A stretch of DNA of 64,000 nt from Alphaproteobacteria bacterium (GTDB taxonomy: Bacteria > Pseudomonadota > Alphaproteobacteria > Rhizobiales > Devosiaceae): NCBI GenBank assembly GCA_018828145.1, contig JAHJWO010000046.1, positions 124,001 to 188,000 on the forward strand, given 5' to 3'. Within the stretch, counting starts at the first letter, position 1; the number at the start of each line of letters is the position of its first letter. A model generated the notes under the pieces. It saw only the letters and a list, made by a program, of their open reading frames with translations. It was not told where the DNA came from and ran no database searches. Below, one piece after another: positions 392 to 18,622 of this stretch. A program made the translations under genes and the position numbers.

Positions 392-1405
<1,014 letters not shown>

Positions 1406-1425
1406 GGATGCAATTCCGTGTCGTC

Positions 1426-2460
1426 CTAACGGACGAACACGGCCTTTTCGGTTTCGCGTTGATCGAAGAGACGGAAGGCGGTTTCGGCCTCGTCGAGCCG
1501 GAAGGTATGGGTGGCAAGCCGTTCCAGGTCGATCTTGTGCGTGCCGATGGTCGTCAGGATGTCCTGGTATTCGTTGATGCCGAAATACCAGGAGCCGAAC
1601 ACGGTCAGCTGTTTACGGATGAGCTGGTCGCTGGGGCGGATGGTGGTCTGGGCATTTTCTCCGACAAAGGCCATGCGGCCGAGCGGGGCGAGCGCATCGA
1701 GCGCCATATTGTGCGCGACGGTGTTGCCCGAGCAATCGATGGCGCCGGTGAGGCCCTCTCCGCCCGAGAACTCCCGGATGGCCTCAACCGCCTGGGGATC
1801 GGTGGGGTCAAGCACCAGGTCGGCACCGAGCCTTTCGGCGAACTCCCTTCTTTCGGCAATCGGGTCGAGCGCCACCACCTGGCCACCCAGCGCCTTGGCC
1901 GCGAGCACTCCGCTCGACCCCATCGGCCCCAGGCCCCAGATGCCGATGCGCGACAAGCCGTTGACGCCCACCTTGCGGCAGGCGGAGAACAGCGTGCCGA
2001 AGGCATCGGTGGAGATGGCGGCGGCCACCGCAGACATGTGCTCCGGGACCTTCAACAGGTTGCGCCCCGGCACTTTGAGGAATTCGGCATTGCCGCCATC
2101 CATGGTGAAGCCGAGGCATTTCCACTTGGCGCAGAGGTGCATGTCGCCCCGCCGGCAGTGGGCGCAGACGCCGCAACCGACAGCGAGATAGACAGCGACG
2201 CGATCGCCGACGGCGAACTCGGTAACCGCCTCGCCGGTCGCCACCACGGTGCCTGCCGGTTCGTGGCCGCAGACGAAACCGCCCGTTGCCTCCCCGCCCC
2301 CGACCACGGCATTGCCATAGTAGAGGCTCAGGTCGCTGCGGCAGATGCATGAGGCATGCATCTCGACCAGCACATCGTCGGGACCGACCTCGGGTACGGG
2401 GATCGAACGGATTTCCACCTGCTTGTTGCCGGGAAGGAAGACGGCTTGCATCTGGGACAC
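1426..2460 (-). CDS. Zinc-dependent alcohol/polyol dehydrogenase (MDR family)
   Basis: A 344-residue medium-chain dehydrogenase, likely NAD(P)-dependent and cytoplasmic. Catalytic zinc ligands are visible as the Cys of SCICRSDL (around residue 39) and the GHE motif. The structural zinc site is the four-cysteine lobe [16 protein letters not shown], and the Rossmann motif is GLGPMG. It lies between the permease gene (14-base gap) and the ATPase gene of a sugar transporter operon. It therefore probably oxidises a polyol or sugar alcohol delivered by that transporter, perhaps in series with the epimerase-like protein at the operon's start. The exact substrate is unknown. Confidence 0.9.
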
Positions 2461-2473
2461 GGAATCTCTCCTG

Positions 2474-3292
2474 TTATTTGACGGCGCCGGCCGTGAGGCC
2501 GCGCACGAAGGATCGCTGCATGGCGAGGAACAGCACGACGAGCGGCGCGAAAGCGATCAGTCCGGCGGCAGCGATGCCGCCATAGTCGACGCCGTAGCGG
2601 CCCTGCAGGCTTGCCGCCCCCACGGTCAACGGCTTGAGGGTTTCCGTCTGGAACACCACCAGCGGCAGCAGGTATTCCTGCCAGGCGAACAGAAAGACGA
2701 TCAGTCCCAGGGACATGAGCCCGGGCTTGACCACCGGTACGACGATGGTGAGGAAAATCTTGAGCAGGCCAGCGCCATCCATGACGGCGGCTTCGACCAG
2801 TTCATCGGGCACGTCCTGCATCACCGTGCGCATCATGAAGACCGAGAACGGCATCAGCAGCGCCGCCTGGGGCAGGATAACCCCGATACGGTTGTCGATG
2901 AGCCCGGCCGCCTGCAGGTTGCCGTAGAGCGCCACGATCACCGAAGGCGCCGGCACCACGAGGCCGGCCAGGAACAGTGCGAACAAGATTTCCTTGCCCG
3001 GAAAGCGCAGCTTGGCAAAGGCAAAGCCCGCCAATGGCGCCGTCAGCAGCACCAGGATGGTGACGCTGACCGCAGTGATGACGCTGTTCATGAAGTAGGT
3101 GGCAAAGCCCGCTTCATTCCAGATCCGGCCGAAATTGGCGAAATTGATCGGCCAGCTCAGCGTCAGCGGCCCGGAAAACAGGTCGGCCTCGCTGCGGATG
3201 GCGGCCAGGAAGACGAGATAGACCGGCACCAGCGCATAGAGCACAAATACCAGGAGGATGAGGTTCTGGATGAGACGGGTTTTTTTGGTCAT
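2474..3292 (-). CDS. Carbohydrate ABC transporter permease (MalG type)
   Basis: Inner-membrane subunit of a CUT1-type sugar importer. It has about six hydrophobic segments and the EAA coupling loop (EAAVMDGAG followed by LTIVVPVVKPG) expected for contact with the ATPase. It ends in the characteristic short basic tail with VRGLTAGAVK. Its start overlaps the stop of the partner permease by four bases, so the two are probably translationally coupled. 272 residues is normal for the family. Confidence 0.93.
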   Translation of the reverse strand: MTKKTRLIQNLILLVFVLYALVPVYLVFLAAIRSEADLFSGPLTLSWPINFANFGRIWNEAGFATYFMNSVITAVSVTILVLLTAPLAGFAFAKLRFPGKEILFALFLAGLVVPAPSVIVALYGNLQAAGLIDNRIGVILPQAALLMPFSVFMMRTVMQDVPDELVEAAVMDGAGLLKIFLTIVVPVVKPGLMSLGLIVFLFAWQEYLLPLVVFQTETLKPLTVGAASLQGRYGVDYGGIAAAGLIAFAPLVVLFLAMQRSFVRGLTAGAVK

Positions 3293-4149
3293 GGCTTCCT
3301 CAGGAGTGCAAAGGCGCCGGCGCTGATGCTGAGGACGATGATGAGCAGCACCACAGAGAGGGTGGCCGCGTAGCCGAAGTCACCGACCAGGAAAAAGGTC
3401 TTGTAGATGTGGGTCGTCAGCACCTCGGTCGCATAGCCGGGGCCGCCCTGGGTCGTGACCCAGACCAGGTCGAAGAAGCGCATCGCCTCGATGGCGGCAT
3501 AGAGCCCGAGAAAGAGCGTGGAGCCGCGCAGCAGGGGCACCGTGAGGTCCCGGAATTTGCGCCACCAGCTCGCTCCGTCGATTGAGGCGGCCTCGTAGAG
3601 GGCCGGGTCGATGGACTGGATGGCGGCGAGATAGATGATCACGCAGAAGCCGAAGAAGGTCCACGCGCCCACCACATTGAGCGACAGCAGCGCGGTGTCT
3701 TCCTGCGCCAGCCAGGCGCCGCCCAGCCCGCCCAGCCCGATTGCTTCCAGCCCGAAATTGAGCAGGCCGAAGATCGGATTGTAGATCCAGCCCCAGATGA
3801 TTCCGGCGACGACCAGGGGAATGGTGCGCGGGATGAAGTAGATCGCCGCCAGCCAGCGCACCACATTGGCATTGCGCTCGGCCAGAATGGCGGCAATCAC
3901 CAGCCCGGCCAGCAGTGGAAAGGCCAACGTCAGCACCACCCAGATGGCATTGTGCCAGAGCGCTACCCAGAACACGCCGTCACCGAGCAGTCGCTGATAG
4001 TTGGCAAGGCCGATGAAATCGCCGGCAATGCCGTTGTCCCAGTCAAAAAAGCTGAAGCCGAAGACCTGCAGGATCGGCAGGCCGACGAAGAGCAGGTAAA
4101 GGGCCAGTGAAGGCGCCAGAAACAGGTAGGCGGATCGGGTGGTCAGCAT
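3289..4149 (-). CDS. Sugar ABC transporter permease (MalF/UgpA type)
   Basis: Second channel subunit of the same importer: hydrophobic N-terminal segment, about six membrane spans and the EAA loop YEAASIDGASWWRKFRDLTVP. The ATG at 4149 is preferred (protein begins MLTTRSAYLF) because GGGAG lies just upstream. A longer frame to 4197 runs into the hairpin that follows the binding-protein gene and has no better start. The gene overlaps the downstream permease by four bases. Confidence 0.92.
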   Translation of the reverse strand: MLTTRSAYLFLAPSLALYLLFVGLPILQVFGFSFFDWDNGIAGDFIGLANYQRLLGDGVFWVALWHNAIWVVLTLAFPLLAGLVIAAILAERNANVVRWLAAIYFIPRTIPLVVAGIIWGWIYNPIFGLLNFGLEAIGLGGLGGAWLAQEDTALLSLNVVGAWTFFGFCVIIYLAAIQSIDPALYEAASIDGASWWRKFRDLTVPLLRGSTLFLGLYAAIEAMRFFDLVWVTTQGGPGYATEVLTTHIYKTFFLVGDFGYAATLSVVLLIIVLSISAGAFALLRKP

Positions 4150-4175
4150 GGCGCACTCCCATTGGGGCTTGAAGC

Positions 4176-4198
4176 GGTGGGCTCCCGTGGAGCCCACC
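4176..4198 (-). terminator. Intercistronic hairpin after the binding-protein gene
   Basis: A perfect ten-base inverted repeat (GGTGGGCTCC, three-base loop, GGAGCCCACC) lies 14 bases past the stop of the binding-protein gene and just before the permease start. It has no U-run, so it more likely protects or attenuates the operon mRNA than fully terminates it. Such a hairpin would let the binding protein be made in excess over the membrane subunits. Similar hairpins follow three other binding-protein genes here. Confidence 0.6.
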
Positions 4199-4212
4199 GG
4201 CAGCGAAGGGTG

Positions 4213-5517
4213 TCAGGGCACCCAGCGCTCGCCATTGTCGATGGCGGTCTGCCAGGCCGTATCCATGGCGGCCAGGAATTCATCGACGGTGACGTCGCCA
4301 CCGATGAGCCGCTGCAGTTCGGCATAGAGCACCTGCGTCATGCTTTCGGGGAGCGTGGTATGCAGGTCGTAGAAGTTGGTATCCGGCGTCGCCAGGCCTT
4401 GGGTGTAGAACGACTTGACGATGGGCAGCGCATCCCACTGCTCGAGCTCCTCGGGGGTCGTGCCGATCGGGACGAGGAAGCCCTTCTCCACCCAGACTTC
4501 GCGGCTCGCCGGCGAGATCAGGCAGTTGATGTAGGCTGCCGCAGCATCCTTGACGTCCTGGCTGGCGTTGGCGGAGACCTGCCACTGCGAGCCTTCACCC
4601 CACATCGTGCCGGGCGCTACGCCCTCCCCGATCGGAGGCAGCATGAAGACGCCGAGGTCGAACGAGGCTCCCCGCGCCATGTCCTGCAATACCCAGGAGC
4701 CGGTGATGGTCATGGCGGCCCGGCCGGCCAGGAACAGCGCATTGGCTTCATCATAACCGATGCCGTTGAATCCGTTGGGGAAGTAGCCGTTCTCAGCCCA
4801 GGATTGGAACGTCTCGGCGGCAAGCTTGAACTGATCGTTGGCCCATGGCGTATCGCCGAACAGCACCGCCTCCTCGGCAGCCTTGCCGGCGCTCAGGCCC
4901 AGCAGCAGGCTCAGCGTATTGGTGGCCGGCCAGCGATCGCGATTGCCGAAGGCGATGGGGGTGATGCCCTTTTCCTTGAAGGCCTCCACCGCCGCCTGGA
5001 ACTCGGCATAGGTGGTGGGGACGGCGATGCCGTTCTCCTCGAACAGAGCCGGGTTGTAGTAGACCCCCATCAGATCCTGCTCCATCGGCACGCCATAGAT
5101 GGCGCCCTCGAAGCTGTTGCGACCACGGTAGAAGTCGTTGATGCCCTCCCAGCCATACTGCGTGTAGTAGTCATCGAGCGGGGCAAGGGCGCCGACCCGG
5201 GCATAGCCCGCCAGCACCGACGCGGCCGGCCAGGTATAGGCGAGGTCCGGCGTCTTGTTGGCTGAAACAGCAAGTCGATAGCTGTCGCGGATGCCGATCG
5301 AGGGCGCAATGGTGCGCAGCACCGTAGCGCCGTTGAGATCAGGCTCGCAGGTGCCGATCAGCTCGTCCATCGCGGGCCCGGCGGCGGTAATGCCCGCCAT
5401 CGCAAACTGGTCCCACTGCGTTACCACAGTCTGGGCGGATGCCGTCTGGATCGAGACGCTGGCGGCGATGCCGGCAGCAAGCAGTAACGGCAGGTGCCGC
5501 TGGGTCGAAAGTGTCAT
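4213..5517 (-). CDS. Extracellular sugar-binding protein of an ABC transporter
   Basis: Periplasmic receptor that delivers a carbohydrate to the adjacent permeases. 434 residues with a Sec signal peptide (hydrophobic stretch LPLLLAAGIAASVSIQTASA, probable cleavage after AQA/TASA near residue 28) followed by a type-1 extracellular solute-binding domain. Recognisable segments are DLAYTWPAASVLAGYA, GVPMEQDLMGVYYNPALFEENG and the ITGSWVLQDM block common to the family. Second gene of the operon, 42 bases after the TIM-barrel gene, and followed by a strong hairpin. The ligand is not evident. Confidence 0.92.
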   Translation of the reverse strand: MTLSTQRHLPLLLAAGIAASVSIQTASAQTVVTQWDQFAMAGITAAGPAMDELIGTCEPDLNGATVLRTIAPSIGIRDSYRLAVSANKTPDLAYTWPAASVLAGYARVGALAPLDDYYTQYGWEGINDFYRGRNSFEGAIYGVPMEQDLMGVYYNPALFEENGIAVPTTYAEFQAAVEAFKEKGITPIAFGNRDRWPATNTLSLLLGLSAGKAAEEAVLFGDTPWANDQFKLAAETFQSWAENGYFPNGFNGIGYDEANALFLAGRAAMTITGSWVLQDMARGASFDLGVFMLPPIGEGVAPGTMWGEGSQWQVSANASQDVKDAAAAYINCLISPASREVWVEKGFLVPIGTTPEELEQWDALPIVKSFYTQGLATPDTNFYDLHTTLPESMTQVLYAELQRLIGGDVTVDEFLAAMDTAWQTAIDNGERWVP

Positions 5518-6567: not shown

Positions 6568-8337
6568 CTAGGAGAGATCGAGTTCGCGCATGACGGTTTC
6601 GGCGCGACTCTGCGCCGCCGCCAACGCGGCGGCACGGCTCTTCTGCCCGCTGAGCATGTCGTGAATTTCTTCTCCGGCAATGCCGATCAGGGCAGAAATG
6701 CCCGGTACTGGCGGACGTGGCCAGGCGCGCAGCACACCCTGGCGCGCGATGGCATCGACGATGCCGATGACCGGCGAAAGCGCCTGCACCTCGGGATCCC
6801 GGTTGACGCTGAAGCGCGGACTGGCAAGGCTGCCATTGGCCATGAACAGCTTGGCCGCGCCAGCCGATGTCAATGCCGTAAGCGCCGCCCAGGCGGGTGC
6901 TACCCTCTCCTCGGCAATGTTGCCCGGGATGGCGAGAGCGTAGCCGCCAAGCGGGGAAATCGGCCTGCCGCTCAGTCCCGTGGGCTGAGGCACATAGCCC
7001 GTCCTGCCGTAGGCCGGAGAAGCGGGGTCGCGCTCGAACAGGTTGACGAGCAAGGTGTGGGCATAGGCAAGCGCTGCATGGCCGCCTGCATAGGCACGGG
7101 CACGATCGTACCAGGTCATGGTGAGGATATTGGGCGGCGATACTGGCAGCAGTTCGGTCAGATAGTCGGCGGCGGCCTGGGCAGCTTCGCTGTCGAACAT
7201 CGGGCGCAGATGTTCTGCGGTGGTGTCCTCCGGCATGAAGCCGTCCGGCGTTCGACCAAGGTTCACGATGGGCTGGCCGTGCGCGGCCATTACGACCATG
7301 AAGGTGTGGCCCAGTGCCGTCCCCCTGCCACCATTCCAGGCGATGCCGAAACGGCCATGCTCGGGCGCATGGAGGGCCCGGGCGACCTCAAGCGTCTCGG
7401 CCGTTGTTTGCGGGGGCGTCAGGCCGGCATCCTTCAGCAGGTCCGTCCGGTAGGCGAGCAGCTCCGCCGTGCTCAGCAGCGGAATGCCATACTGACGGCT
7501 CCGGCGGCGTGTGCTCGCTACAGCGTCCGGCAGGAAGTCGGCCATGTCCATTTTCGACCCGGCGATCAGGTCATCGAGGGGGCGTAGCCGGTTCCTTCGA
7601 ACCATGTCGCCGAACCAGGGCAGGTCGCAGGCGATGAGATCGTATGCCGAGGCCAGGCGATGTCCGTTTTGGACGATTTCGTCCCGTAACCGGTCGATGG
7701 ACAAGGCCTTGGAGCGGATCGGAACGCCCAGGATCATCTCAAACTGCTGTTTGAGCGCGTTCATGGCCATGAACGTCGGGTCGGCGTGAACCAGCAGGCG
7801 CAGACCGCGTGGCAGTGCGAGCTTGCTTTCCAACACGGTCGGCGGGGCAATCACTGCCGACATGTTGTCTGCCGGCTTCCGCACCGGCTGCGCGCCACGA
7901 CCGGTCATCTGCTCGATCAGGCGGTGGGTATGGCCATTGAAAAGCTGCCACCGACGCAGCAGTTCGGAAGAGGGGTGCATGGAAAAGGAGCGGCCCGTGG
8001 TGGTGCGGGGACGCCTGACAATGAGGCCATCCTCGACCAACCCCTCGATAGCGCGGAAGGCCGTGCCGTAGCTGAGCCCGGATGCCGTTGCCAGGGACGA
8101 CATAGTGGTCAGCCGGCCGCTGACGTGATTGCGCATCAGATGGAGCACGATGCCCAGGTTCCGGGGATCGATGCTCAGGCTATCGCTGCCTTTGCCGCGC
8201 AGGGCAGCGATGAACTCGATGGTTTCCAGCATGGCGGCATTCGACGCCAACTGGATATGCGACGAATCTGCCTCATAGGGCCCTTCCGGGAGTCCTTCGG
8301 CCGTTTCAGACTTCCGGCGCTTGCGGTTTATCGCCAC
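6568..8337 (-). CDS. Winged-helix domain fused to an ABC solute-binding-protein domain, probably a cytoplasmic sensor-regulator
   Basis: Residues about 52-120 form a winged-helix DNA-binding region of the MarR/IclR kind (LGIVLHLMRNHVSGRLTTMSS, then LSYGTAFRAIEGLVEDGLIVRR). Residues about 175-570 look like a type-1 extracellular solute-binding protein (SAYDLIACDLPWFGDMVRRNRLRPLDDLI, YGIPLLSTAELLAYRTDLLKDAGL). There is no signal peptide or membrane segment, so both parts should be cytoplasmic. The GTG at 8337 (589 residues) has an AGGTG six bases upstream; an internal ATG at 8232 would still keep the helix. It lies just upstream of, and on the same strand as, the sugar operon ending at 392, which it probably controls. 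A remnant of a related gene lies upstream. Confidence 0.72.
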   Translation of the reverse strand: MAINRKRRKSETAEGLPEGPYEADSSHIQLASNAAMLETIEFIAALRGKGSDSLSIDPRNLGIVLHLMRNHVSGRLTTMSSLATASGLSYGTAFRAIEGLVEDGLIVRRPRTTTGRSFSMHPSSELLRRWQLFNGHTHRLIEQMTGRGAQPVRKPADNMSAVIAPPTVLESKLALPRGLRLLVHADPTFMAMNALKQQFEMILGVPIRSKALSIDRLRDEIVQNGHRLASAYDLIACDLPWFGDMVRRNRLRPLDDLIAGSKMDMADFLPDAVASTRRRSRQYGIPLLSTAELLAYRTDLLKDAGLTPPQTTAETLEVARALHAPEHGRFGIAWNGGRGTALGHTFMVVMAAHGQPIVNLGRTPDGFMPEDTTAEHLRPMFDSEAAQAAADYLTELLPVSPPNILTMTWYDRARAYAGGHAALAYAHTLLVNLFERDPASPAYGRTGYVPQPTGLSGRPISPLGGYALAIPGNIAEERVAPAWAALTALTSAGAAKLFMANGSLASPRFSVNRDPEVQALSPVIGIVDAIARQGVLRAWPRPPVPGISALIGIAGEEIHDMLSGQKSRAAALAAAQSRAETVMRELDLS

Positions 8338-8812: not shown

Positions 8813-9793
8813 TCAGGCGGGACGTGTGCCCGCCTGGCTCAGGGCCACGGCGAGGATGATGATCCCCCCACGGGCGATGAGTTGCTGGGAATATTCGAGG
8901 CCCATCAGGATCAGACCGTTGTTGATGACGCCGATCATCAGCGCGCCGATGATCGAACCGACCACCGTGCCCTTGCCGCCGAAGAGGCTGGTGCCGCCTA
9001 GCACGACGGCTGCGATCACCGACAGTTCGTCGCCTTCGCCGAGTTGGAAGCGCCCGGTCTGCAGCCGGCCGGCATAGAGCATGCCGGCGATCGCGGCGGT
9101 CACCGCGGAGATAACGATGACCCAAAGCTTGATCTGGGCGGTATTGATGCCGCTGTAGCGCGCCGCCACAACATTGCCGCCGACCGCCAGCACCTGGCGG
9201 CCGAACTTGGTGCGCCGCAACACGACATGGCCGATGACGCCGATGACCAGCATCCAGACCAGCAGGGTGGGCACCGGCCCGATATTGCCGCCGCCGAAAA
9301 TCGCCGGATAGGTGCGGTCGAGCACAGGAATGGCGGCGGTTCCCGAAATCCACATAGCCGTGCCCTTGGCGATGCCCATCATGGCCAGCGTGGTGAGAAA
9401 CGTCGGGATCATCAGTCGCGTCGACAGGAAGCCGTTGATCAGCCCGACGGTAACACCGGTCATGATACCCGCCGCGATGCCGGCGGGCAGTCCACCCCAG
9501 GCGACCGCCATTGCCGTGGTCACCGAGGCGAGACCCGCCACTGCACCAACAGACAGGTCGATCTCGCCGGACGACAGCACCAGCGTCATCGCCACCGCCA
9601 TGACGGCAATCACCGCGGTCTGCCGGGTGATATTGAGGATGTTGTTGGGGGTCAGGAAGCCCTTGTCGTGGAGCGTCAGGGCGAAGAACAGGAACACGAC
9701 GACGAAGCCGATATAGATGATGTTCTGCCGCCAGGTGCGCTTGAAATAGCCCCAGGGCGTTTCGCGACCCGCGGTTGCCATAGTTTCAGACAT
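8813..9793 (-). CDS. Sugar ABC transporter permease (RbsC/AraH type)
   Basis: Membrane subunit of a CUT2-type importer. 326 residues with about eight to ten hydrophobic segments and the family blocks LSSGEIDLSVGAVAGLASV, GINTAQIKLWVIVISAVTAAIAGMLYAGRLQTG and VLGGTSLFGGKGTVVGSIIGAL. Its start overlaps the stop of the double-domain ATPase by eight bases. Last gene of the leftward operon that begins at 14553. Beyond its stop lie only gene remnants. Confidence 0.94.
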   Translation of the reverse strand: MSETMATAGRETPWGYFKRTWRQNIIYIGFVVVFLFFALTLHDKGFLTPNNILNITRQTAVIAVMAVAMTLVLSSGEIDLSVGAVAGLASVTTAMAVAWGGLPAGIAAGIMTGVTVGLINGFLSTRLMIPTFLTTLAMMGIAKGTAMWISGTAAIPVLDRTYPAIFGGGNIGPVPTLLVWMLVIGVIGHVVLRRTKFGRQVLAVGGNVVAARYSGINTAQIKLWVIVISAVTAAIAGMLYAGRLQTGRFQLGEGDELSVIAAVVLGGTSLFGGKGTVVGSIIGALMIGVINNGLILMGLEYSQQLIARGGIIILAVALSQAGTRPA

Positions 9794-11342
9794 GATTTCC
9801 TCCCCGCTGCACGATCAATTGCAGCTTCTGTTCGGCGCGCAGTTCGTCTGCATCGCCGGTGCTGTTCAAAAGGTCAGACTTGTCGATCGTTTCGACCAGC
9901 CGGCCGCCCGACATCACCGCGATGCGGTCGCTGACGGCCGCCAGTTCGGCGAGTTCGGACGAGATGAAGATGATGGACTTGCCCTCGGCCGCCAGGGCGC
10001 GCACGAGGCGCAGCACTTCGCCCTTGGAGCCGATGTCGATACCGGCCGTAGGTTCATCCAGGATGAGAATGTCCGGATCAGTCGCCAGCCACTTGCCGAT
10101 GACGATCTTCTGCTGGTTGCCGCCGGACAGGGAATTGGCCGGCGCCTCGCGCGACGCCGTCTTGATGGCGAGGCGCTTGATCAGGTCGTCCGTCGTGTTG
10201 CGCGACTTGAGGCGATCGACAAAGGGGGTCGAGCCGAGGCGCTTGAGGATCGGCAGCTCGATATTGTCCTGGATGGAATGGTTGAGCACCAGGCCCTGCC
10301 GGCGACGGTCTTCCGGCACGAGGGCCAGGCCGAGTTCGGTGGCCTGCCGCGCCGAACCGATGGAAATCGTCTGGCCGCGCAGCGTAATGGTGCCGCCGGC
10401 AATTGGCTCGAGCCCGAACAGCATGCGGGCCAGCCGGCTGCGCCCTGCCCCCAGCAGGCCGGCAATTCCCAGCACTTCACCGCGCCGCAGCGAGAAACTG
10501 ACATCACCGCTGCGCCGCAGCTTGCTCGACAGATGCTCGACCTTGAGGATGATGTCATCCTGCGCCGCAGAATCCGTCGTGAATTCGGATAGGTCGCGGG
10601 TTTCCTTGCCCATGATGTCGGCGATCAACGTCGCCAGCGTGTACTCAGCGATAGGACGGCTGTCGATCAGCCGGCCGTCGCGCAGTACGGTCGCATGGTC
10701 GGCGATGCGGAAGATTTCATCCATGCGGTGGCTGACATAGATGATGGCCTTGCCCTCGCTCCGAAGGCGCCGCAGTAGATCGAAGAGGATATCGACCTCA
10801 CCCGCGGTCAGGGCGGAAGTCGGCTCATCAAGCACCAACACCTCGGCATTCTGCGAAAGGGCCTTGGCGATCTCGGTCAGTTGCTGCTGACCGGTGGAAA
10901 GGTCAGCCACCAGAGCAGCCGGATCCACGCTCACCCCCATCGAGGTGAATATCTCGGCACTGCGCCGTTCCATCACCCGGTCATCGATCAGCCCCGCCGG
11001 GGTCAGGGGTTCGTTGGCAAGAAACACGTTCTGCGCCACGCTCAGCGTCGGCACCAGGCTCATTTCCTGGAAGATCATGCCGATGCCCTGTTGCCGGGCC
11101 AGCTGCGGCGAGAGGCGATCGAACGCCCCTCTCCCGATGACGATGCTGCCGCTATCGGGCGCCTGGACGCCCCGCAGGATCTTGAGAATGGTGGACTTGC
11201 CGGCGCCGTTCTCGCCCAGAAGGGCATGGATTTCGCCACGCCGCACGCTGAGGCTGACGTCCCGCAGGGCATGGACGCCGCCAAAGCGCTTGGAAATGGC
11301 ATTCATTTCCACCGCGACTGGCTTTTCCGCCATCTCGATCAC
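9786..11342 (-). CDS. Sugar ABC transporter ATP-binding protein with two nucleotide-binding domains (RbsA/MglA type)
   Basis: A duplicated ATPase of about 515 residues powering the CUT2 permease. The first domain has Walker A GENGAGKSTILK, signature LSTGQQQLTEIAKAL and Walker B VLVLDEPTSAL. The second has the usual degenerate P-loop GLLGAGRSRLAR with LSGGNQQKIVIGKWL and ILILDEPTAGID. GTG at 11342 is preferred: it overlaps the stop of the oxidoreductase gene (GTGA) and has GGGTGG seven bases upstream. The ATG at 11333 (MAEKPVAVEM) is the alternative and has no spaced ribosome site. Confidence 0.92.
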   Translation of the reverse strand: MIEMAEKPVAVEMNAISKRFGGVHALRDVSLSVRRGEIHALLGENGAGKSTILKILRGVQAPDSGSIVIGRGAFDRLSPQLARQQGIGMIFQEMSLVPTLSVAQNVFLANEPLTPAGLIDDRVMERRSAEIFTSMGVSVDPAALVADLSTGQQQLTEIAKALSQNAEVLVLDEPTSALTAGEVDILFDLLRRLRSEGKAIIYVSHRMDEIFRIADHATVLRDGRLIDSRPIAEYTLATLIADIMGKETRDLSEFTTDSAAQDDIILKVEHLSSKLRRSGDVSFSLRRGEVLGIAGLLGAGRSRLARMLFGLEPIAGGTITLRGQTISIGSARQATELGLALVPEDRRRQGLVLNHSIQDNIELPILKRLGSTPFVDRLKSRNTTDDLIKRLAIKTASREAPANSLSGGNQQKIVIGKWLATDPDILILDEPTAGIDIGSKGEVLRLVRALAAEGKSIIFISSELAELAAVSDRIAVMSGGRLVETIDKSDLLNSTGDADELRAEQKLQLIVQRGGNHV

Positions 11343-12502
11343 GGAATGTCCACCCATTGGCCGGTCTCGCCCGAGGTCAGGATGGCGTCGGCGATGAGGG
11401 CGATGCGATAGCCATCCTCGAAATTCGGCGAGGGCTGCTTGCCGGTGACGATGGCGGTGCAGAGATCGAAGCATTCGACGATCTTGGTCTCACCATAGCC
11501 GATGCCAAGGGCCGGGATGGGCCAGAGCCCCGATCCATAGGGATGGGCCGGACCGGTATAGACCGTGCGGAAACCCCGGGCGTCACCGACGTCGTCGGCG
11601 AACATGACCTGCAGCTCGTCGCGTCGCTCGTAGTTGAAGGCCAGCGATCCCTTGGTGCCGTGGATTTCGAAGGTGAGGAAGTTGTTGCGGCCATAGGCGT
11701 TCCGAGTTGCTTCGATCGAGCCGATCGCGCCGTTGGCAAACTTGAGCATGGTCAGCATCTCGTCATCGACGTCGACCGGACCGCGTTCGGCATTGCGGTC
11801 ACCACCGCCGACGCCCAGCTTGTCGATACCACCGGCCTGCTTGGGACGGGTGGGGATATGCGTCTTGACCAGGGCATTGACCGAGGCGATTTCGCCGACG
11901 AGGTAGCGGGCAAAGTCGACCACATGTGTGCCGATATCCCCGACCGTTCCTGACCCTGCGACCGACTTCTGGAAGCGCCAGGACAGCGGGCTGTCGGGGT
12001 CGGCGGACCAGTCCTGCAGATAGGTACCGCGGAAGTTGAGGATGTCGCCTATGCGGCCTTCCTCGATGAGCTTCTTGGCCATCGCCACGGCGGGCGTGCG
12101 ACGGTAATTGAAGGCGACCATGTGGATGGAGCCGGACGCCTGGACCGCATCGAGCATGGTCAGGGATTCAGCGCCTGTTCGCGCCAGTGGCTTCTCGCAG
12201 ATGATGTGCTTGCCCGCCTTAGCGGCGGCGATGGCGATCTCGGCGTGGGAATTGTTGGGCGTGCAGATGTCGATGATGTCGATGTCCGGCCGAGCGATCA
12301 CTGCACGCCAGTCGGCGGAGGCCTCTTCGAAGCCGAAGCGATCGCGCGCCGTTTCGGCCATTTCCTGGTTGATGTCCACGACGACCTTGCGCACCGGGAT
12401 GGCGGGCGCCGGCCAGAAGAACATCGGCATAGCGGCATAGGCCATGGCGTGGGCCTTGCCCATGAAACCGCCGCCGATCATGGCAACATTGAGCTTCTGC
12501 AT
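11339..12502 (-). CDS. Gfo/Idh/MocA-family NAD(P)-dependent oxidoreductase
   Basis: A 387-residue sugar or cyclitol dehydrogenase. The N-terminal Rossmann fold is marked by MIGGGFMGKAHAMAY, the EKP motif occurs as CEKPLARTG, and the C-terminal alpha/beta domain carries GDIGTHVVDFARYLVG. It acts in the cytoplasm, probably oxidising the compound imported by the surrounding RbsABC-type system. With the inosose-dehydratase-like TIM barrel in the same operon it recalls the IolG/IolE pair of inositol breakdown, but the substrate is only inferred. Confidence 0.9.
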   Translation of the reverse strand: MQKLNVAMIGGGFMGKAHAMAYAAMPMFFWPAPAIPVRKVVVDINQEMAETARDRFGFEEASADWRAVIARPDIDIIDICTPNNSHAEIAIAAAKAGKHIICEKPLARTGAESLTMLDAVQASGSIHMVAFNYRRTPAVAMAKKLIEEGRIGDILNFRGTYLQDWSADPDSPLSWRFQKSVAGSGTVGDIGTHVVDFARYLVGEIASVNALVKTHIPTRPKQAGGIDKLGVGGGDRNAERGPVDVDDEMLTMLKFANGAIGSIEATRNAYGRNNFLTFEIHGTKGSLAFNYERRDELQVMFADDVGDARGFRTVYTGPAHPYGSGLWPIPALGIGYGETKIVECFDLCTAIVTGKQPSPNFEDGYRIALIADAILTSGETGQWVDIP

Positions 12503-12528: not shown

Positions 12529-12581
12529 GCGGGGACGGTCGAGGGAGGGCCGTCCCCGCTAAGGCGCCGGGAGGAGCGCCT
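12529..12581 (-). terminator. Double hairpin downstream of the RbsB-type gene
   Basis: Two inverted repeats follow the binding-protein coding region. AGGCGC/GCGCCT (12562-12581) overlaps its stop codon. The perfect ten-base pair GCGGGGACGG/CCGTCCCCGC (12529-12559) has an eleven-base loop. No U-run follows. They fit an mRNA-stabilising or attenuating structure between the highly needed binding protein and the downstream oxidoreductase and transporter genes. Confidence 0.55.
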
Positions 12582-13698
12582 AGTTCATGGAATCGCTGAC
12601 CGTGGCCGGCGCTTCGGTTGAGTAGACCGCCTGCCAGGCGTCGAGCAGGTTGCTCTTCTCCACCGGGAGGGCTGGCAGGGCAACATAGGGAGGCGCATCC
12701 TTGCCGAGCAGGCCGTAGCCGGCGAGCTTTGCCTCGGTCACGCCCTGGTCGAACGGCCGCTGCGCGCCCAGACCCTTGATGAAGCCGCCACGCGCCATGT
12801 CGATGGCGACGTTCTCGCCCAGGTCGATGGTGGTGATGACCAAGTCGTCGCGGCCGTTGGCGCGGGCGGCGGCGATCACGCCTTCGGCCGGCACGTCCCA
12901 GACCGCCCAGATGCCGTCGATATTGGCATTGCCCACCATCATTGCCGATGCGGCACGGTCGGCGTCACCGGTAAAGTCCGGCCCGCCGATGCCCTGTTCG
13001 GCGACAATCTCGATCTCGGGGTAGTTCTGCTCGATGGTCGCCTTGAACGCATCGTAGCGCTGGCGCGTCACGAAAAAGTCGGCAGCATGGAAGACGATGC
13101 CGATCTGGCCTTCGCCGTTCAGCGCCTTGGCCATCAGATGCGCCGAGGCGACGCCATTGCCGTAATTGTCGGCAGAGACCACGCTGACATAGTCGGTGCC
13201 GGCCACGAACCCGGCCGGGACATTGTCCATGAAGACCAGTTTGACACCGGCTTCGGCGGCCTGGCGGTAGGCTGCGGCCGTGGCCGTTGGATCGGTCGGG
13301 ATCGAGACGATGATGTCGGGGCTCTGTGCCATGATGGTTTCGATGTCGGAAACCTGCTTGGCCGAGTTGAAGCCGGCGTCGGTGGTGGCGATCACCTCGA
13401 TGCCCATGGCCTCGAACTGGGTCTCGAGACCATTGATCTGGGCCTGGCTCCAGTCGTCGCCGCCGTAGTGCATGACGATGGCGGCTGTGGCGCCCATGGC
13501 CTTTATCTGGGCCAGTTCGTCATCGGACAGCGTGATCTCGGAGGCCGAGACGGGGCTCTCGCCCCCCGGGCCGGTGCTCAGCGTCTGGTTGGCGAGTGCA
13601 GCCAGCGCCTCGTCCGGGCTCTGTGCGATGGCAGTCCCGGCGATGGTGCCGGCCAGCAAGGCTGCGGTCAGCAGCGCGGTGGTCTTCAGATGTCCCAT
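12580..13698 (-). CDS. Periplasmic sugar-binding protein (RbsB-like, type I fold)
   Basis: Periplasmic receptor for the RbsABC-type importer. 372 residues with a clear signal peptide (KTTALLTAALLAGTIAGTAIA, cleavage near residue 25) and a periplasmic-binding-protein type I fold: AAIVMHYGGDDWSQAQINGLE, DIIVSIPTDPTATAAAYRQA, KLVFMDNVPAG and GIWAVWDVPAEGVIAAAR. It is clearly paralogous to the signal-less protein at 16090-17163 (both have AVWDVPA, TTxDLGxxVAxDMAR and GAQxPxDQG). Second gene of the operon. Confidence 0.93.
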   Translation of the reverse strand: MGHLKTTALLTAALLAGTIAGTAIAQSPDEALAALANQTLSTGPGGESPVSASEITLSDDELAQIKAMGATAAIVMHYGGDDWSQAQINGLETQFEAMGIEVIATTDAGFNSAKQVSDIETIMAQSPDIIVSIPTDPTATAAAYRQAAEAGVKLVFMDNVPAGFVAGTDYVSVVSADNYGNGVASAHLMAKALNGEGQIGIVFHAADFFVTRQRYDAFKATIEQNYPEIEIVAEQGIGGPDFTGDADRAASAMMVGNANIDGIWAVWDVPAEGVIAAARANGRDDLVITTIDLGENVAIDMARGGFIKGLGAQRPFDQGVTEAKLAGYGLLGKDAPPYVALPALPVEKSNLLDAWQAVYSTEAPATVSDSMN

Positions 13699-13737: not shown

Positions 13738-14553
13738 TCAGGCAAAGTGCCGTTGCAGGTATGCGTGGCTGCGCGCCGCCCCCTCGTGGGGATCGGGCCA
13801 GCTATCGAGCTCGGCCATGACCCAGCCCGAATACTTGGTGTCCTTGAGCGCCTGGATGACCGCGCCGTTGTCGAGGTCGCCGGTGTCGAGCGGGGTGAAG
13901 CCGAACGGCTCACGCTGCAGGCCCTTGAGGTGCACCAGGCTGATGCGCCCCGCAAATTCGCGAACCTGCGCCGCAGGGTCGCCGCCAGCTGCTGCCAGGT
14001 GGGCGGTATCGGGGCAGAAATCGAGGCCGGTAAGGCCGAAAATCCTGGTCACCTCAGCCGGACCTTCCACGATGGTGGAGAGATGCGGATGGTAGTGGGC
14101 GCGTAGTCCGGCGCGTCGGGCGATCTCGCCGACCCTATCAAGTGCTTCGCCCAGACGCTGGTAGTCGTCCGCCTGGATGCCGTCGGCCCGCTTGGCGCCG
14201 CCGCCGATCACATAGTGGCTGGCTCCAGCCTCGGCAGCCGCCGCTGCTACGCGCTCGATCCGGGCCAGTTCCTCGGGGAGAATGTCCGGAAAGATGAAGT
14301 TGCCGCCCGAATAGGTCGAGACCAGTTCAAGGCCGGCATCGGCGAGCTTGCGGCGAAGGTCCGCGGGCGTCTGGTCGAGCAGATTGCCATCGAAGATTTC
14401 CACACCCGCATAGCCGGCCCGCGCGATGTCGGCGAAGGCGCGATCCATGTCGGCAAAGGTCCGGTAGGTCAGCTGCGTGATCGACGTGACCCCGACGGCA
14501 TTGCCGCCGAGCGGGCCCCAGCAATTGGCGTGATAGGCAAATTTGACCGCCAT
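13738..14553 (-). CDS. Sugar phosphate isomerase/epimerase, inosose-dehydratase-like
   Basis: A 271-residue AP-endonuclease-2-like TIM barrel, first gene of the leftward operon. It shows the arrangement of IolE-type proteins: YHPHLSTIVE, FCPDTAHLAAAGGDP, SLVHLKG and AELDSWPDPHEGA, which supply the likely metal ligands Glu, Asp, His and Glu. Probably a cytoplasmic dehydratase or isomerase of a keto-cyclitol or ketose made by the neighbouring oxidoreductase. A GGAGGAA ribosome site precedes the ATG. Substrate unproven. Confidence 0.87.
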   Translation of the reverse strand: MAVKFAYHANCWGPLGGNAVGVTSITQLTYRTFADMDRAFADIARAGYAGVEIFDGNLLDQTPADLRRKLADAGLELVSTYSGGNFIFPDILPEELARIERVAAAAAEAGASHYVIGGGAKRADGIQADDYQRLGEALDRVGEIARRAGLRAHYHPHLSTIVEGPAEVTRIFGLTGLDFCPDTAHLAAAGGDPAAQVREFAGRISLVHLKGLQREPFGFTPLDTGDLDNGAVIQALKDTKYSGWVMAELDSWPDPHEGAARSHAYLQRHFA

Positions 14554-14670: not shown

Positions 14671-14698
14671 ATCTTTTGCTGGAAAATAAGCAAAAGAT
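14671..14698. promoter_or_regulatory. Perfect palindrome in the divergent promoter region, probable ROK operator
   Basis: ATCTTTTGCT and AGCAAAAGAT are exact inverted copies around the eight-base AT-rich centre GGAAAATA. The site lies between the divergently transcribed inosose-dehydratase-like gene (start 14553) and the ROK regulator gene. It is thus placed to control both. ROK repressors such as NagC and Mlc use long AT-rich palindromes of similar shape. Confidence 0.6.
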
Positions 14699-14737: not shown

Positions 14738-16093
14738 ATGCAGCCGGCAAGGGATGGATTCGTGGCCGAGGAGAAGACAGCGCAGCGGTCGGTTGGCCGC
14801 CCCCGCAGTGTCGAGGCTGCCCAAGCAAGCCTGGCGCTGTTACTCAATCTTGTGCGAACCGGCACGGCGACCACGCGGCAGGAACTCGAACGCCGCTCCG
14901 AACTGGGGAGGGCGGTCGTCGCCGACAGACTAGCGACGATGATCGACCTGGGCCTGCTCAAGGAAGGCGAACTAGGTCAGGCCACCGGCGGCCGGGCGCC
15001 CCGGCAGATGCAGTTCCGCCAGGATGCCGGCTCGCTGCTGGTGTCAGTGATCGACCAGAGCTCCATCGCCCTTGGCATTGCCGATCTCAACGGCCAGATG
15101 CTGGTGGAACATCACGAAGCAGCCCAACTCGACGCTGGACCCGAGGCCATTCTCGACCGGCTGGCGACCATTTTCGACTGGCTGCTCAAGGAAACCGAGA
15201 AGCCGGCGCCGTGGGGGATCGGCCTGGCGCTGCCCGGACCGATCGAGAAGCCGGTATCTGACTTCGAGGCGGTGCCCGTGCTGCAGACGGTGCAGTCGTG
15301 GCAGGACTTTCCGTTCCTGGAACGCATGTCAATGCGGTTCGGCGTGCCGGTTTTCGCCCGCAGCGGCGTTCAGACCATGACCATGGGCGAGGCCAAGGCG
15401 GGTGGCGGCCGCGGCCTGAGCGACATGATCTACGTCAAGCTGGGCCGATCGATCAGCGCCGGACTGATTTCCGAGGGGCATCTGCACCGGGGCGCCCAAG
15501 GCGCCGCCGGCATGATTGGGCACAGCCGGGTTGGCGAGGATCTGCTCGAGGCCGTGGTCGGCGCCGACGCCATCGCGCGGGAGGGAATGATCGCAGCCGA
15601 AGACGGGCGCAGCCCCTACCTGGCGCAGGCATGGGCGCGGCAAGGCGAACTTTCGGTCGTGGACATCGGGCATGCGGCCCAGCTGGGCGACCTGTTCTGC
15701 GTGGACTTGCTTGGCCGCTGCGGCCGCCTGGTGGGCGAGGCGCTTGCCCCATTGACCAATCTGGTCAATCCCGCGCTGATCGTTATCGGCGGCGTCGTCT
15801 CAGAGTCGGGCGGCGACAGTCTCCTGGCCGGTATTCGCGAAGCGGTCTATCGCCAGTCCCATCCCATGGTATCGCGCGACCTGCAGATCATCCGCTCCCA
15901 GATGGGCGCCTCCTCCGGCCTGGTCGGAGCCGCCCAGGTGGTGGTGGAGGAACTGTTTGCGCCAACCATCCTGCAGGGCTGGGTGGGACAGGGGACACCG
16001 CTGCGCCATCCCGATTTCCAGAAGAGCCGCGAGCACGTGGCCGCAACCCTGGCAAGCAGAGCTGCCCCCCCAGCGGAGCGCGTCGCGCCATGA
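14738..16093 (+). CDS. ROK-family transcriptional regulator lacking the usual zinc motif
   Basis: A 451-residue cytoplasmic regulator: N-terminal winged helix (ATTRQELERRSELGRAVVADRL) and a ROK sugar-kinase-like domain (GIGLALPGPIEKPV, IYVKLGRSISAGLISEGHLHRG, ALIVIGGVVSESGG). Where ROK proteins normally carry CxCGxxGCxE after the GEIGH stretch, this one reads AGMIGHSRVGEDLLEAVVG with no cysteines. The usual catalytic Asp (NDANAAALGE) is replaced by RSGVQTMTMGEA. Sugar kinase activity and classical zinc-dependent ligand sensing are therefore unlikely. It overlaps the next gene by ATGA. GTG at 14762 with AAGGGA is an alternative start. Confidence 0.88.
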   Translation: MQPARDGFVAEEKTAQRSVGRPRSVEAAQASLALLLNLVRTGTATTRQELERRSELGRAVVADRLATMIDLGLLKEGELGQATGGRAPRQMQFRQDAGSLLVSVIDQSSIALGIADLNGQMLVEHHEAAQLDAGPEAILDRLATIFDWLLKETEKPAPWGIGLALPGPIEKPVSDFEAVPVLQTVQSWQDFPFLERMSMRFGVPVFARSGVQTMTMGEAKAGGGRGLSDMIYVKLGRSISAGLISEGHLHRGAQGAAGMIGHSRVGEDLLEAVVGADAIAREGMIAAEDGRSPYLAQAWARQGELSVVDIGHAAQLGDLFCVDLLGRCGRLVGEALAPLTNLVNPALIVIGGVVSESGGDSLLAGIREAVYRQSHPMVSRDLQIIRSQMGASSGLVGAAQVVVEELFAPTILQGWVGQGTPLRHPDFQKSREHVAATLASRAAPPAERVAP

Positions 16094-17163
16094 ACAGCAA
16101 GACTTTGGGCAGGATGCCAGGGGAGACGGCCATGTCGATCGCAGGCCTCGGCCCCCACGGCGAGCGCGCCGTTCCCGCGGACCAGATCCAGCTATCGGAA
16201 ACCGACGCCATCAATGCCCGGGCCCGCCGATTTTCGGTAGCTGTGGTCCTGCACACGACGACCAGCGACTGGTCCAAGCAGGAACTGGCCGGCATTGCCG
16301 CCACACTGGGTCTTCACTCGGCGGCACTGGTGGAAGTGGTCGACTGCAATTTCGATGTCGATCTGCAAATTGCCGCTTTGGCCAGACTGGCACGCCGGCC
16401 TGTAGATGCGGTGATCTCCATCCCCATTGGCAACGCCCGAGTGGCAGCGGCCCATAGCGCCCTGACGCAGAGCGGATGCAAGCTGGTACTGCTCGACAAT
16501 GCTCCGACCGGCATGCTGCCGGGTGCCGACTATGCCAGCGTTGTCTCGACCGACAATTTCGGGCTGGGACAGAGCTGCGCCTCGATGCTGTCGGCCCACA
16601 TTCCGGCCAATGGCGCTGCCGGCATTCTCGGCTATGGCATCGACTTCTTTGCCACCCACGAACGCGAGATCGCCTTTCGCAAGTGGATGGCCACCCACCG
16701 GCCCGATGTCACTCTCGTGCGTGAACGTTTTGCCGAACTGGAAGGGGCCGGGCCAGCCGCCCTGGCCATGGTCGACAAGACCCCCGGGCTATCAGGAATT
16801 TTTGCTGTCTGGGATGTCCCCGCGATGAAGGCGGTTCGGGCACTCGCCGAGCAGGGCATCGACATTCCGATTACCACGGTGGACCTCGGCAACGAAGTCG
16901 CGCTCGATATGGCTCGTCATGGCATGATCAAGGGGGTGGGCGCCCAGTTGCCCTACGACCAGGGCAGCGCCGCGGCGCGCGTGACCCTAGCTGCCTTGCT
17001 CGGACTGCCGGTCCCACCATGGGTGGCCCTGGCCGGACGGGAGGTCACGCCGGGCGATGTCATTGAGGCGTATCAGGTGATCTGGCACTTGCCCGCCCCC
17101 AGGGCCATCATTGACAGTGTGCAGACGATGGCCTCCGCCAAGACCTCAGATGCTACCCAATAG
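16090..17163 (+). CDS. Signal-less RbsB-like sugar-binding protein overlapping the ROK regulator gene
   Basis: A 357-residue periplasmic-binding-protein type I domain (FSVAVVLHTTTSDWSKQEL, DAVISIPIGNARVAAAHSAL, CKLVLLDNAPTGMLPGADYA, GIFAVWDVPAMKAVRAL). It closely parallels the exported protein at 12580-13698. Its N-terminus (MNSKTLGRMPGETAMSIAGL) is polar and lacks a signal peptide, so it should stay in the cytoplasm. The ATG shares bases with the TGA of the ROK gene, implying coupled translation and a joint function. The likely role is to sense the sugar inside the cell and pass this to the ROK protein. A lost signal peptide through decay is the alternative, but the domain is intact. Confidence 0.85.
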   Translation: MNSKTLGRMPGETAMSIAGLGPHGERAVPADQIQLSETDAINARARRFSVAVVLHTTTSDWSKQELAGIAATLGLHSAALVEVVDCNFDVDLQIAALARLARRPVDAVISIPIGNARVAAAHSALTQSGCKLVLLDNAPTGMLPGADYASVVSTDNFGLGQSCASMLSAHIPANGAAGILGYGIDFFATHEREIAFRKWMATHRPDVTLVRERFAELEGAGPAALAMVDKTPGLSGIFAVWDVPAMKAVRALAEQGIDIPITTVDLGNEVALDMARHGMIKGVGAQLPYDQGSAAARVTLAALLGLPVPPWVALAGREVTPGDVIEAYQVIWHLPAPRAIIDSVQTMASAKTSDATQ

Positions 17164-17464: not shown

Positions 17465-18622
17465 GTGGCTGGCAGCTTCGAACTTGTCGGGCTGGACGAA
17501 ATCAAGGAGGCCTTGGGCGCGAGGTGGCCCGACCTGGCAGCCCGCGCAAGCGATCTGGCCGAACAAGGCATCAGGCGACGGCTTGCCGACCGCGACATCC
17601 TGCAGGTGCTCAGCGAGACGGAGTTCTCGATCTGCTTTGCCAGGCTCGACCGGAAGGCAGCGGTCGAGCGCGCCAAGCAGATATCGCGCGAGATCAAGCA
17701 GGAGATCTTCGCCGAACTTCCCGAATTTTCCTCGAGCGTCACCGTCAAGCAGTATGTCGCCGAAATCGAAATCAAGAACCTTGCCGGCGATACCGGCAGC
17801 CTGGCCGATCGGCTGGTGCTGACCCTGCGCCGCATGCGGCTCGAAGCGGATCGGGCGATTCTGAATTACCGCCGCCTACTGCTCAAGGACTTCCAGGTGC
17901 TCTTTGCCCCGCTGTGGGATCCCGAGCGCGCCATCGTCGACCTCAACCGCTGCGTGCTGGATCTCTCCCTGGGCTGCACCACGCTGTCCCAGTTCCAGGC
18001 CATTGCCGATCCCGACCAGATGGTCGACACGCTCGCTGACATGGACTGCCTCGCCCTGACCCGCACGCTGGAAGTGCTGCACCGCTACGGGAAGGCGAGC
18101 AACGTTGCCGCCATACTTGTCCCGGTGGGCTATCAGACGCTGGCCCGCAGTTCGACCCGGCGTGAGTACCTCAAGCTGCTATCCAGCGTGCCGGATGTCT
18201 ATTCGCCCTTTGTGAAGCTCGAAGTCACGAACGTGCCGGCACGTCCCAATGTTGATCAGCTAAACACTCTTCTGTTTACGGTCAGTGCCATACGTCGCGA
18301 CCTGACGCTGCAGGTCAACGCCAACGCCGGATATCTTTCGGCGCTGGATGCCGCACCGCTTTGGGGCCTGTCATGCAATCTCTCCGCCGGACAATTGCGC
18401 GACCCGACGCAGCGGACCGTGGCGCCGGCATTCATGGAATTTGCCAGAGACAATGGCCTTCGCACCATGGCGCATGGCGCCAATACAATCGGCCTGGCAC
18501 TGGCCGCTGTCGACAGCGGTTTCGATTATGTCAGCGGCACGGCAATCCATCTCTCTCAGGATACGCCCCGCGCGCCCTCGCGCCTGCACCCCCTGACTTT
18601 TCCCAAACGCATCTCGGGATGA
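17465..18622 (+). CDS. Degenerate GGDEF/EAL-like protein, probably frameshifted at its start
   Basis: The 385 residues resemble a decayed pair of cyclic-di-GMP domains. An N-terminal part (DILQVLSETEFSICFARLD) corresponds in layout to GGDEF but lacks that motif. A C-terminal part (VPVGYQTL, FVKLEVTNVPA, NGLRTMAHGANTIGLALAAV, GFDYVSGTAIHL) resembles an EAL barrel without EAL or metal ligands. Catalysis is unlikely; it could be a receptor or scaffold. The GTG at 17465 has no ribosome site and the frame is open upstream to a nine-C run, so the true start is probably the ATG at 17277 with a frameshift. It precedes a receiver-EAL gene on the same strand by 33 bases. Confidence 0.6.
   Translation: MAGSFELVGLDEIKEALGARWPDLAARASDLAEQGIRRRLADRDILQVLSETEFSICFARLDRKAAVERAKQISREIKQEIFAELPEFSSSVTVKQYVAEIEIKNLAGDTGSLADRLVLTLRRMRLEADRAILNYRRLLLKDFQVLFAPLWDPERAIVDLNRCVLDLSLGCTTLSQFQAIADPDQMVDTLADMDCLALTRTLEVLHRYGKASNVAAILVPVGYQTLARSSTRREYLKLLSSVPDVYSPFVKLEVTNVPARPNVDQLNTLLFTVSAIRRDLTLQVNANAGYLSALDAAPLWGLSCNLSAGQLRDPTQRTVAPAFMEFARDNGLRTMAHGANTIGLALAAVDSGFDYVSGTAIHLSQDTPRAPSRLHPLTFPKRISG

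Follow-up and report, generated by a model that had tools for sequence, protein, structure and literature searches.

The DNA stretch analysed here, a window of 64,000 nucleotides (nt) from an alphaproteobacterium of the Devosiaceae (contig JAHJWO010000046.1, positions 124,001 to 188,000), carries two adjoining genes on its plus strand whose relationship is the subject of this work. The upstream gene, an open reading frame (ORF) of 451 amino acids (aa) at 14738-16093, encodes a regulator of the ROK family (PF00480, 1.6e-32) whose sensing site appears to be dead and whose nearest relative in the PDB is Mlc. The downstream gene, at 16090-17163, encodes SBP2, a signal-less, RbsB-like substrate-binding protein (SBP) of 357 aa (PF13407, 1.5e-26), which we propose to be a cytoplasmic ligand sensor. 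The ROK stop and the SBP2 start share the plus-strand ATGA at 16090-16093; both this overlap and the coordinates of the two ORFs had been given correctly in the original prediction. The same is true of the palindrome ATCTTTTGCT-N8-AGCAAAAGAT at 14671-14698 (assigned to neither strand), which is exact, with two 10-nt arms and an 8-nt spacer, and is the proposed ROK operator.

The pair is divergent from an operon on the minus strand. The first gene of that operon (13738-14553) encodes a TIM-barrel enzyme resembling sugar isomerases and epimerases (PF01261, 1.7e-31). It is followed by SBP1 (12580-13698), the exported substrate-binding protein of an ATP-binding cassette (ABC) transporter, with a signal-like N-terminus (PF13407, 1.4e-43), and by a levoglucosan dehydrogenase of the LgdA type (LGDH; 11339-12502), which scores 728 bits with NF052479 against a cut-off of 650. 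The sugar ABC transporter ATPase (9786-11474; PF00005, 4.9e-57 in two stretches), whose true start, judging from the translation, is probably near 11333, and the permease (8813-9793; PF02653, 3.9e-40) complete it.

The starts of the two plus-strand genes deserve a comment. ROK probably begins at GTG 14762: its orthologues, that of locus L005 for instance, have frames that open at RGGFVAEE without an ATG. For SBP2 there is an alternative start at ATG 16132, with a Shine-Dalgarno sequence stronger than that at 16090. The start at 16090 is plausible, though not settled, since relatives L010 and L011 do not have the methionine of 16132, even if each has an in-frame GTG close by. As a general trait the overlap of the two genes does not hold: an overlap of the ATGA type occurs in 12 of 25 named loci (in one of them with GTG) and in the other 13 the first SBP2 start lies beyond the ROK stop, so that it is a lineage-specific feature.

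We take the catalytic Asp and the acidic residue of the GxIGH motif to be the sugar-site residues of ROK proteins. Alignment with Mlc and relatives places G210 of the window ROK at the Asp position and M259 at the acid of GxIGH. The zinc motif CxCGxxGCxE is missing as well; in the alignment with Mlc (3bp8/1z6r) the whole zinc segment is deleted. Hence the observation that this ROK protein has neither the zinc motif nor the catalytic Asp stands. The ROK fold itself is retained. The PF00480 match passes its cut-off, and the N-terminal region corresponds to the winged helix of Mlc, to which the alignment begins at residue 35; a separate Pfam helix-turn-helix (HTH) match was not found. A structural model, of lower confidence than that of SBP2 (pLDDT 74), predicts helices at 24-40, 47-54 and 58-70 followed by strands, and a Foldseek search with it matched Mlc, the closest, and operator-bound Lmo0178 over nearly their full length. 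The ratio of non-synonymous to synonymous substitution rates (dN/dS) among the relatives compared is 0.064-0.098.

SBP2 has kept what the ROK protein has lost. Besides matching PF13407 (Peripla_BP_4), it finds ribose- and sugar-type SBPs as its top Foldseek matches, and its AF2 model (pLDDT 88) resembles ribose-type SBPs. There are 46 positions that are near-invariant and identical across SBP1 and SBP2, as against 119 consensus identities in 295 positions overall. H55, D60, W61, D136, N137, R192, W241, D242, D265 and Q286 are among them, and by analogy with RbsB we assume that W61, D136, N137, R192, D242, D265 and Q286 belong to the ligand pocket. Another 29 positions are fixed differently in the two proteins; some of these, Y182, E191, E193, R197 and W199, are candidates for a surface facing ROK. 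With dN/dS of 0.065-0.115 in six comparisons, SBP2 is judged to be under purifying selection.

The N-terminus of SBP2 has no hydrophobic segment, while that of its paralogue SBP1 has one, which bears out the claim of a signal-less protein with the binding fold preserved. Signals were called by a hydropathy rule and not by SignalP. Among 43 SBP2-class proteins 40 N-termini are readable and none has a convincing signal, so that homologues with signals in the same position, which would have spoken against the original prediction, did not turn up; L052 alone was flagged, and only when read from an upstream TTG. By a similar rule 59 of 60 SBP1-class proteins have signal-like N-termini. Beyond the ROK stop, the first start in many relatives falls right at the GLGPHGE of SBP2.

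In the kind of search that the original prediction proposed, ROK genes followed by signal-less RbsB-like genes recur within the order. In 397 genomes, the 17 places with a ROK of this kind (at least 520 bits) are the same 17 places that have SBP2 (at least 420 bits); below the cut-off there is an SBP2 remnant without ROK in genome G005 (378 bits). Among all the loci fetched to that point, ROK is directly upstream of SBP2, on the same strand, for 41 of 43 distinct SBP2-class proteins. Taken together with the 17 shared places, this means that the pairing is not due to chance. The two unpaired proteins are remnants, one truncated and without ROK (L013, from G005) and the other frame-broken, with a C-terminal remnant of ROK (L057). 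Of the 41 paired SBP2 proteins, 40 are full-length and one, L042, is shortened: in this locus, from Devosia sp. ZB163 (L042 5001-5858, plus strand), the SBP2 frame stops early after a complete ROK. In L056, none of the usual start codons is found at the conserved N-terminal place of SBP2.

In 26 named loci, ROK is adjacent to SBP2 in 25, the TIM-barrel enzyme is present in 25 and LGDH (more than 70% identity) in 21. Named carriers of the pair include Devosia, which has the nearest named loci, Pelagibacterium, Mesorhizobium, Chelativorans, Bauldia, Acidisoma and Roseiarcus. Among 385 genomes sampled at class level, the pair turned up in two more places (G797 and G818), and there was one SBP with a signal that belongs to the sister kind. 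The dehydrogenase was seen in two of the 299 genomes of a phylum sample, one of them being the source genome itself. A weak mirror-tree comparison of 11 loci suggests that SBP2 and ROK have diverged in a correlated way, more so than SBP1 accounts for (partial r 0.78).

The ROK-SBP2 module is also plasmid-borne. Matches were found in 28 plasmid records. Agrobacterium, Rhizobium, Sinorhizobium, Ensifer, Shinella, Paracoccus and Mesorhizobium are among the carriers, and some of the plasmids are typed as conjugative. Of 15 fetched stretches, 11 have SBP2 (two of the 11, L195 and L204, share identical ROK and SBP2 accessions). An intact ROK precedes SBP2 in 10 of the 11, and none of these 10 ROKs has the Asp or the GxIGH acid; the eleventh, from Ochrobactrum (L192), has a truncated ROK.

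Some loci depart from the common layout. Genome G120 (contig C1) has two ROK-SBP2 pairs, with an SBP1-type gene near each. In Bauldia (L051 2018-3151, minus strand) the transporter SBP beside the pair is of another class than SBP1. In G797 (L174 6408-6662, plus strand) only a piece of an SBP similar to that of Bauldia was matched; in both, the TIM-barrel enzyme, ROK and SBP2 remain. An apparent ROK-SBP2 fusion in G220, an open frame of 929 aa, was rejected as ROK and SBP2 are read there in different frames.

Paired ROKs were also compared with unpaired ones. The Asp is present in none of 41 paired ROKs and neither is the acid of GxIGH; the zinc motif is kept in 11. The unpaired set comprises every order-level ROK match that was listed with an E of 1e-60 or better and does not lie beside SBP2, 28 in all; the search scored at most four candidates per genome, and the 28 include near-identical sequences. 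In these, the Asp is present in 28, the zinc motif in 28 and the acid in 26. A counterpart outside the paired group is found on the Arthrobacter agilis plasmid NZ_CP117872, where a ROK is divergent from genes for an SBP1-type protein, ABC components, a Gfo/Idh protein, an isomerase and LGDH (68%). No SBP2 was found with this operon, and the ROK is intact, with DNDAN, GDIGH and CRCGKRGC. At 405 bits it is the top-scoring ROK without SBP2 among the matches seen.

What does not survive the comparison is the loss of the zinc motif as a hallmark. Since 11 of the 41 paired ROKs keep the motif, and six of the seven ROKs found in the source genome are without it, zinc loss cannot be taken as a mark of outsourced sensing. 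Among those seven, the Asp is gone in the window ROK and in one other protein (L167), and several of the remaining five have no acid at the GxIGH position. The window ROK is alone among the seven in having lost all three, the Asp, the GxIGH acid and the zinc motif.

Phylogenetic trees give some idea of the order of these losses. The ROK tree comprises 54 rows, and in it a branch with 100/100 support splits the 15 controls from all paired ROKs (the placement of one row, L050_p, is meaningless, as it is a wrongly picked fragment, 11% filled). When the tree is rooted on the controls, it suggests that the Asp and the acid were lost once, ahead of the zinc losses. The zinc-less paired ROKs require two changes; the well-supported branches force just one, and zinc was probably lost twice. 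In the SBP tree, which is midpoint-rooted and does not contain LacI sequences, SBP2 is a single clade with 100/100 support. Its 29 rows were read from the tree, a motif-based label having missed eight of them. Its closest neighbours there are SBPs that have signals and serve other ABC transporters (G244, G431 and the Bauldia transporter SBP), so we rejected the idea that SBP2 is a recent duplicate of the divergent SBP1.

We think it likely that ROK and SBP2 constitute a two-protein regulator of the divergent operon for uptake and catabolism of a levoglucosan-type sugar, in which SBP2 would be the cytoplasmic sensor. Outsourcing of the sensor is the simplest account because the sugar-site residues are gone from ROK and are kept in an SBP2 that is nearly constant as a partner and apparently not exported. 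Under such a scheme SBP2 would remain in the cytoplasm and close on the imported sugar, levoglucosan or a close derivative. Its binding to ROK, or its release, would then switch ROK off an operator of the form ACTTTTG-N11/12-CAAAAGT, and the TIM-SBP1-LGDH-ABC operon would be induced. By analogy with NasS-NasT, a complex of ligand-free SBP2 with ROK may be the resting state. A sequence of this form, with at least 12 of 14 matches, is found in 20 of 32 intergenic regions, the motif having been derived from some of the same sequences that were scored and the shuffles being mononucleotide ones. The palindrome of Bauldia has 12 of 14 matches but an 8-base spacer.

On the evolutionary side we lean, with some reservation, towards a clade of ROK proteins that handed ligand sensing over to a separate cytoplasmic sugar-binding protein and whose own site then decayed stepwise, first the Asp and the acid and then the zinc motif, the latter probably in two lineages. 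As part of the same tentative preference, the outsourced ROK and SBP2 may be likened to a LacI regulator divided between two proteins, of which ROK is the DNA-binding half. The suggestion of the original prediction, that the binding protein is a cytoplasmic sensor replacing the sensing by ROK itself, agrees with the comparative tests in that residue loss tracks pairing and no convincing signal was seen; overall we regard it as partly supported.

A number of points weigh against this interpretation. The Fisher values for paired against unpaired ROKs ignore shared descent and thus overstate the evidence; as the Asp loss apparently has a single origin at the base of the paired clade, the counts are not independent events. 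Site residues may also be lost without a partner. L167 of the source genome (G000:C60:141210-141932, minus strand) has HKR at the expected Asp, with the zinc motif intact and an acid present in TEFGH. No SBP2-class gene was found in its fetched stretch, so that Asp loss alone is no proof of outsourcing. Two unpaired alphaproteobacterial ROKs (L104 and L149) have Asn for the acid in GxIGH, with the Asp and the zinc motif kept. In the Ochrobactrum plasmid (L192 5457-7041, plus strand) a full-length SBP2 is located behind the truncated ROK. As for the operator, 12 of the 32 intergenic regions, including those of Acidisoma, Roseiarcus and Bauldia, fall under the threshold, and the partial circularity of the motif counts here too. 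Finally, the fetched flanks of five of the 26 named loci showed no LGDH, which makes the ligand uncertain.

Several other explanations can be offered. ROK might respond alone or take its signal from elsewhere, for instance from a protein partner, and SBP2 might be a cytoplasmic buffer or carrier of sugar feeding the levoglucosan enzymes. The retained pocket residues would suit such a carrier, and the view of the original prediction that ROK repressors normally sense sugar through their own domain needs qualifying: not all do, as Mlc was crystallised with the protein EIIB (3bp8). However, the most constant partner of SBP2 is ROK, adjacent in 25 of 26 loci as against 21 of 26 for LGDH and a transporter SBP of another class in Bauldia, and the loss of the ROK site tracks the presence of SBP2. 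We consider this explanation unlikely.

It is still less probable that SBP2 serves in transport as an ordinary, or non-classically exported, SBP whose signal was lost or mis-annotated and whose place beside ROK has no regulatory meaning. SBP2 does belong to the RbsB-like family and has a signal-bearing sister clade with ABC transporters of its own, but a single flagged signal among 40 readable N-termini (that of L052) and the many first starts at GLGPHGE do not fit an exported protein. In addition, SBP2 follows ROK in the examined loci and shares its strand, the transporter genes being on the other. Decay of the pair, with SBP2 a redundant paralogue that is being lost and ROK a constitutive or inactive relic, seems very improbable to us. 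Four damaged cases were seen (G005/L013, L057, L042 and the Ochrobactrum L192), yet the low dN/dS of both proteins and the existence of 40 distinct full-length SBP2 proteins with ROK already disfavour it. To the origin of SBP2 as a LacI-family regulator without its DNA-binding head we give hardly any credence and have rejected it: LacI regulators do stand beside comparable operons in Klebsiella and, in the cited passages of PMC7676230, in Bacillus smithii, but the best family match of SBP2 is PF13407, the LacI-like PF13377 stays below its cut-off, no HTH match was found in SBP2, and the tree groups it with exported SBPs (no LacI sequences being included).

To return to SBP2 as the proposed sensor for ROK, there are other examples of binding-protein folds that work inside the cell or of ROK proteins that work with a partner, and these can be compared with the pair. 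In the LacI family, the binding-protein fold serves as an intracellular sugar sensor, and AmiC has a periplasmic-binding-protein fold. The Mlc-EIIB mechanism is one of sequestration, EIIB being part of a membrane protein of the phosphotransferase system.

NasS offers one parallel. According to the cited passages of PMC3795266, it detects its ligand inside the cytoplasm, lacks the signal sequence of NrtA and keeps the nitrate-coordinating residues, and its complex with NasT dissociates upon sensing nitrate or nitrite; the same passages compare AmiC-AmiR with it. Like SBP2, NasS is a signal-less binding protein with ligand residues, co-encoded with a separate output protein, the parallel being drawn on our side from gene order and sequence. 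The two differ in that NasT is an ANTAR RNA-binding antiterminator where the output here is a ROK protein, and in that NasS is a nitrate (NrtA-like) protein and SBP2 a sugar (RbsB-like) one. AmiC-AmiR likewise has a signal-less, small-molecule-binding sensor complexed with a separate regulator, as far as those passages of PMC3795266 describe it, whereas its output is antitermination, its ligand an amide, and no ROK is involved. Our best reading of the sequences is that ROK-SBP2 resembles both systems but would have a DNA-binding output. Cytosolic proteins matching SBP profiles do exist, according to a survey (the cited passage of PMC9602780).

Mlc is like the proposed ROK in being a repressor found in complex with a protein partner, EIIB, but in the alignment its zinc motif is intact, unlike that of the window ROK. 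LacI regulators share with SBP2 a position next to comparable levoglucosan-type operons. In Klebsiella a LacI gene is upstream of such an operon; the Bacillus smithii pathway, in the cited passages of PMC7676230, has enzymes of these kinds, with a LacI gene adjoining the SBP gene. In LacI regulators, however, the sensor and the DNA-binding head are one chain; here they are encoded by separate genes, with ROK as the DNA-binding half. The Arthrobacter agilis plasmid ROK, the nearest plasmid ROK without SBP2, is like the window ROK in being divergent from a levoglucosan-type operon, and unlike it in having no SBP2 and in keeping its sensing residues and zinc motif. In the open-licence literature, covered by titles and the openings of abstracts, we found no paper on a ROK paired with a signal-less SBP.

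A few observations on the surroundings may be added. Three SBP1-type ABC operons (L155, L156 and L157) have no ROK or SBP2 match in the fetched stretch. A GH35/GH42-like gene adjoins the first two, and because of this some SBP1 relatives may carry other glycosides. In the window itself, genes of a second sugar ABC transporter (a UgpC-type ATPase, a permease and an SBP_bac_8 binding protein) occupy 392-5517 on the minus strand. Between both sugar ABC operons there is a minus-strand gene at 6568-8232 (the frame is open to 8787) for a protein with a MarR_2-like winged helix, matched below the Pfam cut-off, followed by SBP_bac_1; this is possibly a second binding-protein domain serving as an intracellular sensor, in a single chain. 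Downstream of SBP2, a plus-strand ORF of 385 aa (17465-18622) matched nothing in Pfam at 0.001 or in NCBIfam at 1e-10.

If the proposal is correct, a family of transcription factors known for sensing through their own kinase-like domain can swap this sensor for another protein, and both surviving intermediates, which have the zinc motif but no longer the Asp, and a counterpart in Arthrobacter with ROK only would be at hand. Some of the signal-less genes that are found beside regulators and annotated as "substrate-binding domain-containing protein" would then be sensors and not parts of transporters. For rhizobia and their relatives, ROK-SBP2 would be the likely regulator of levoglucosan-type catabolism.

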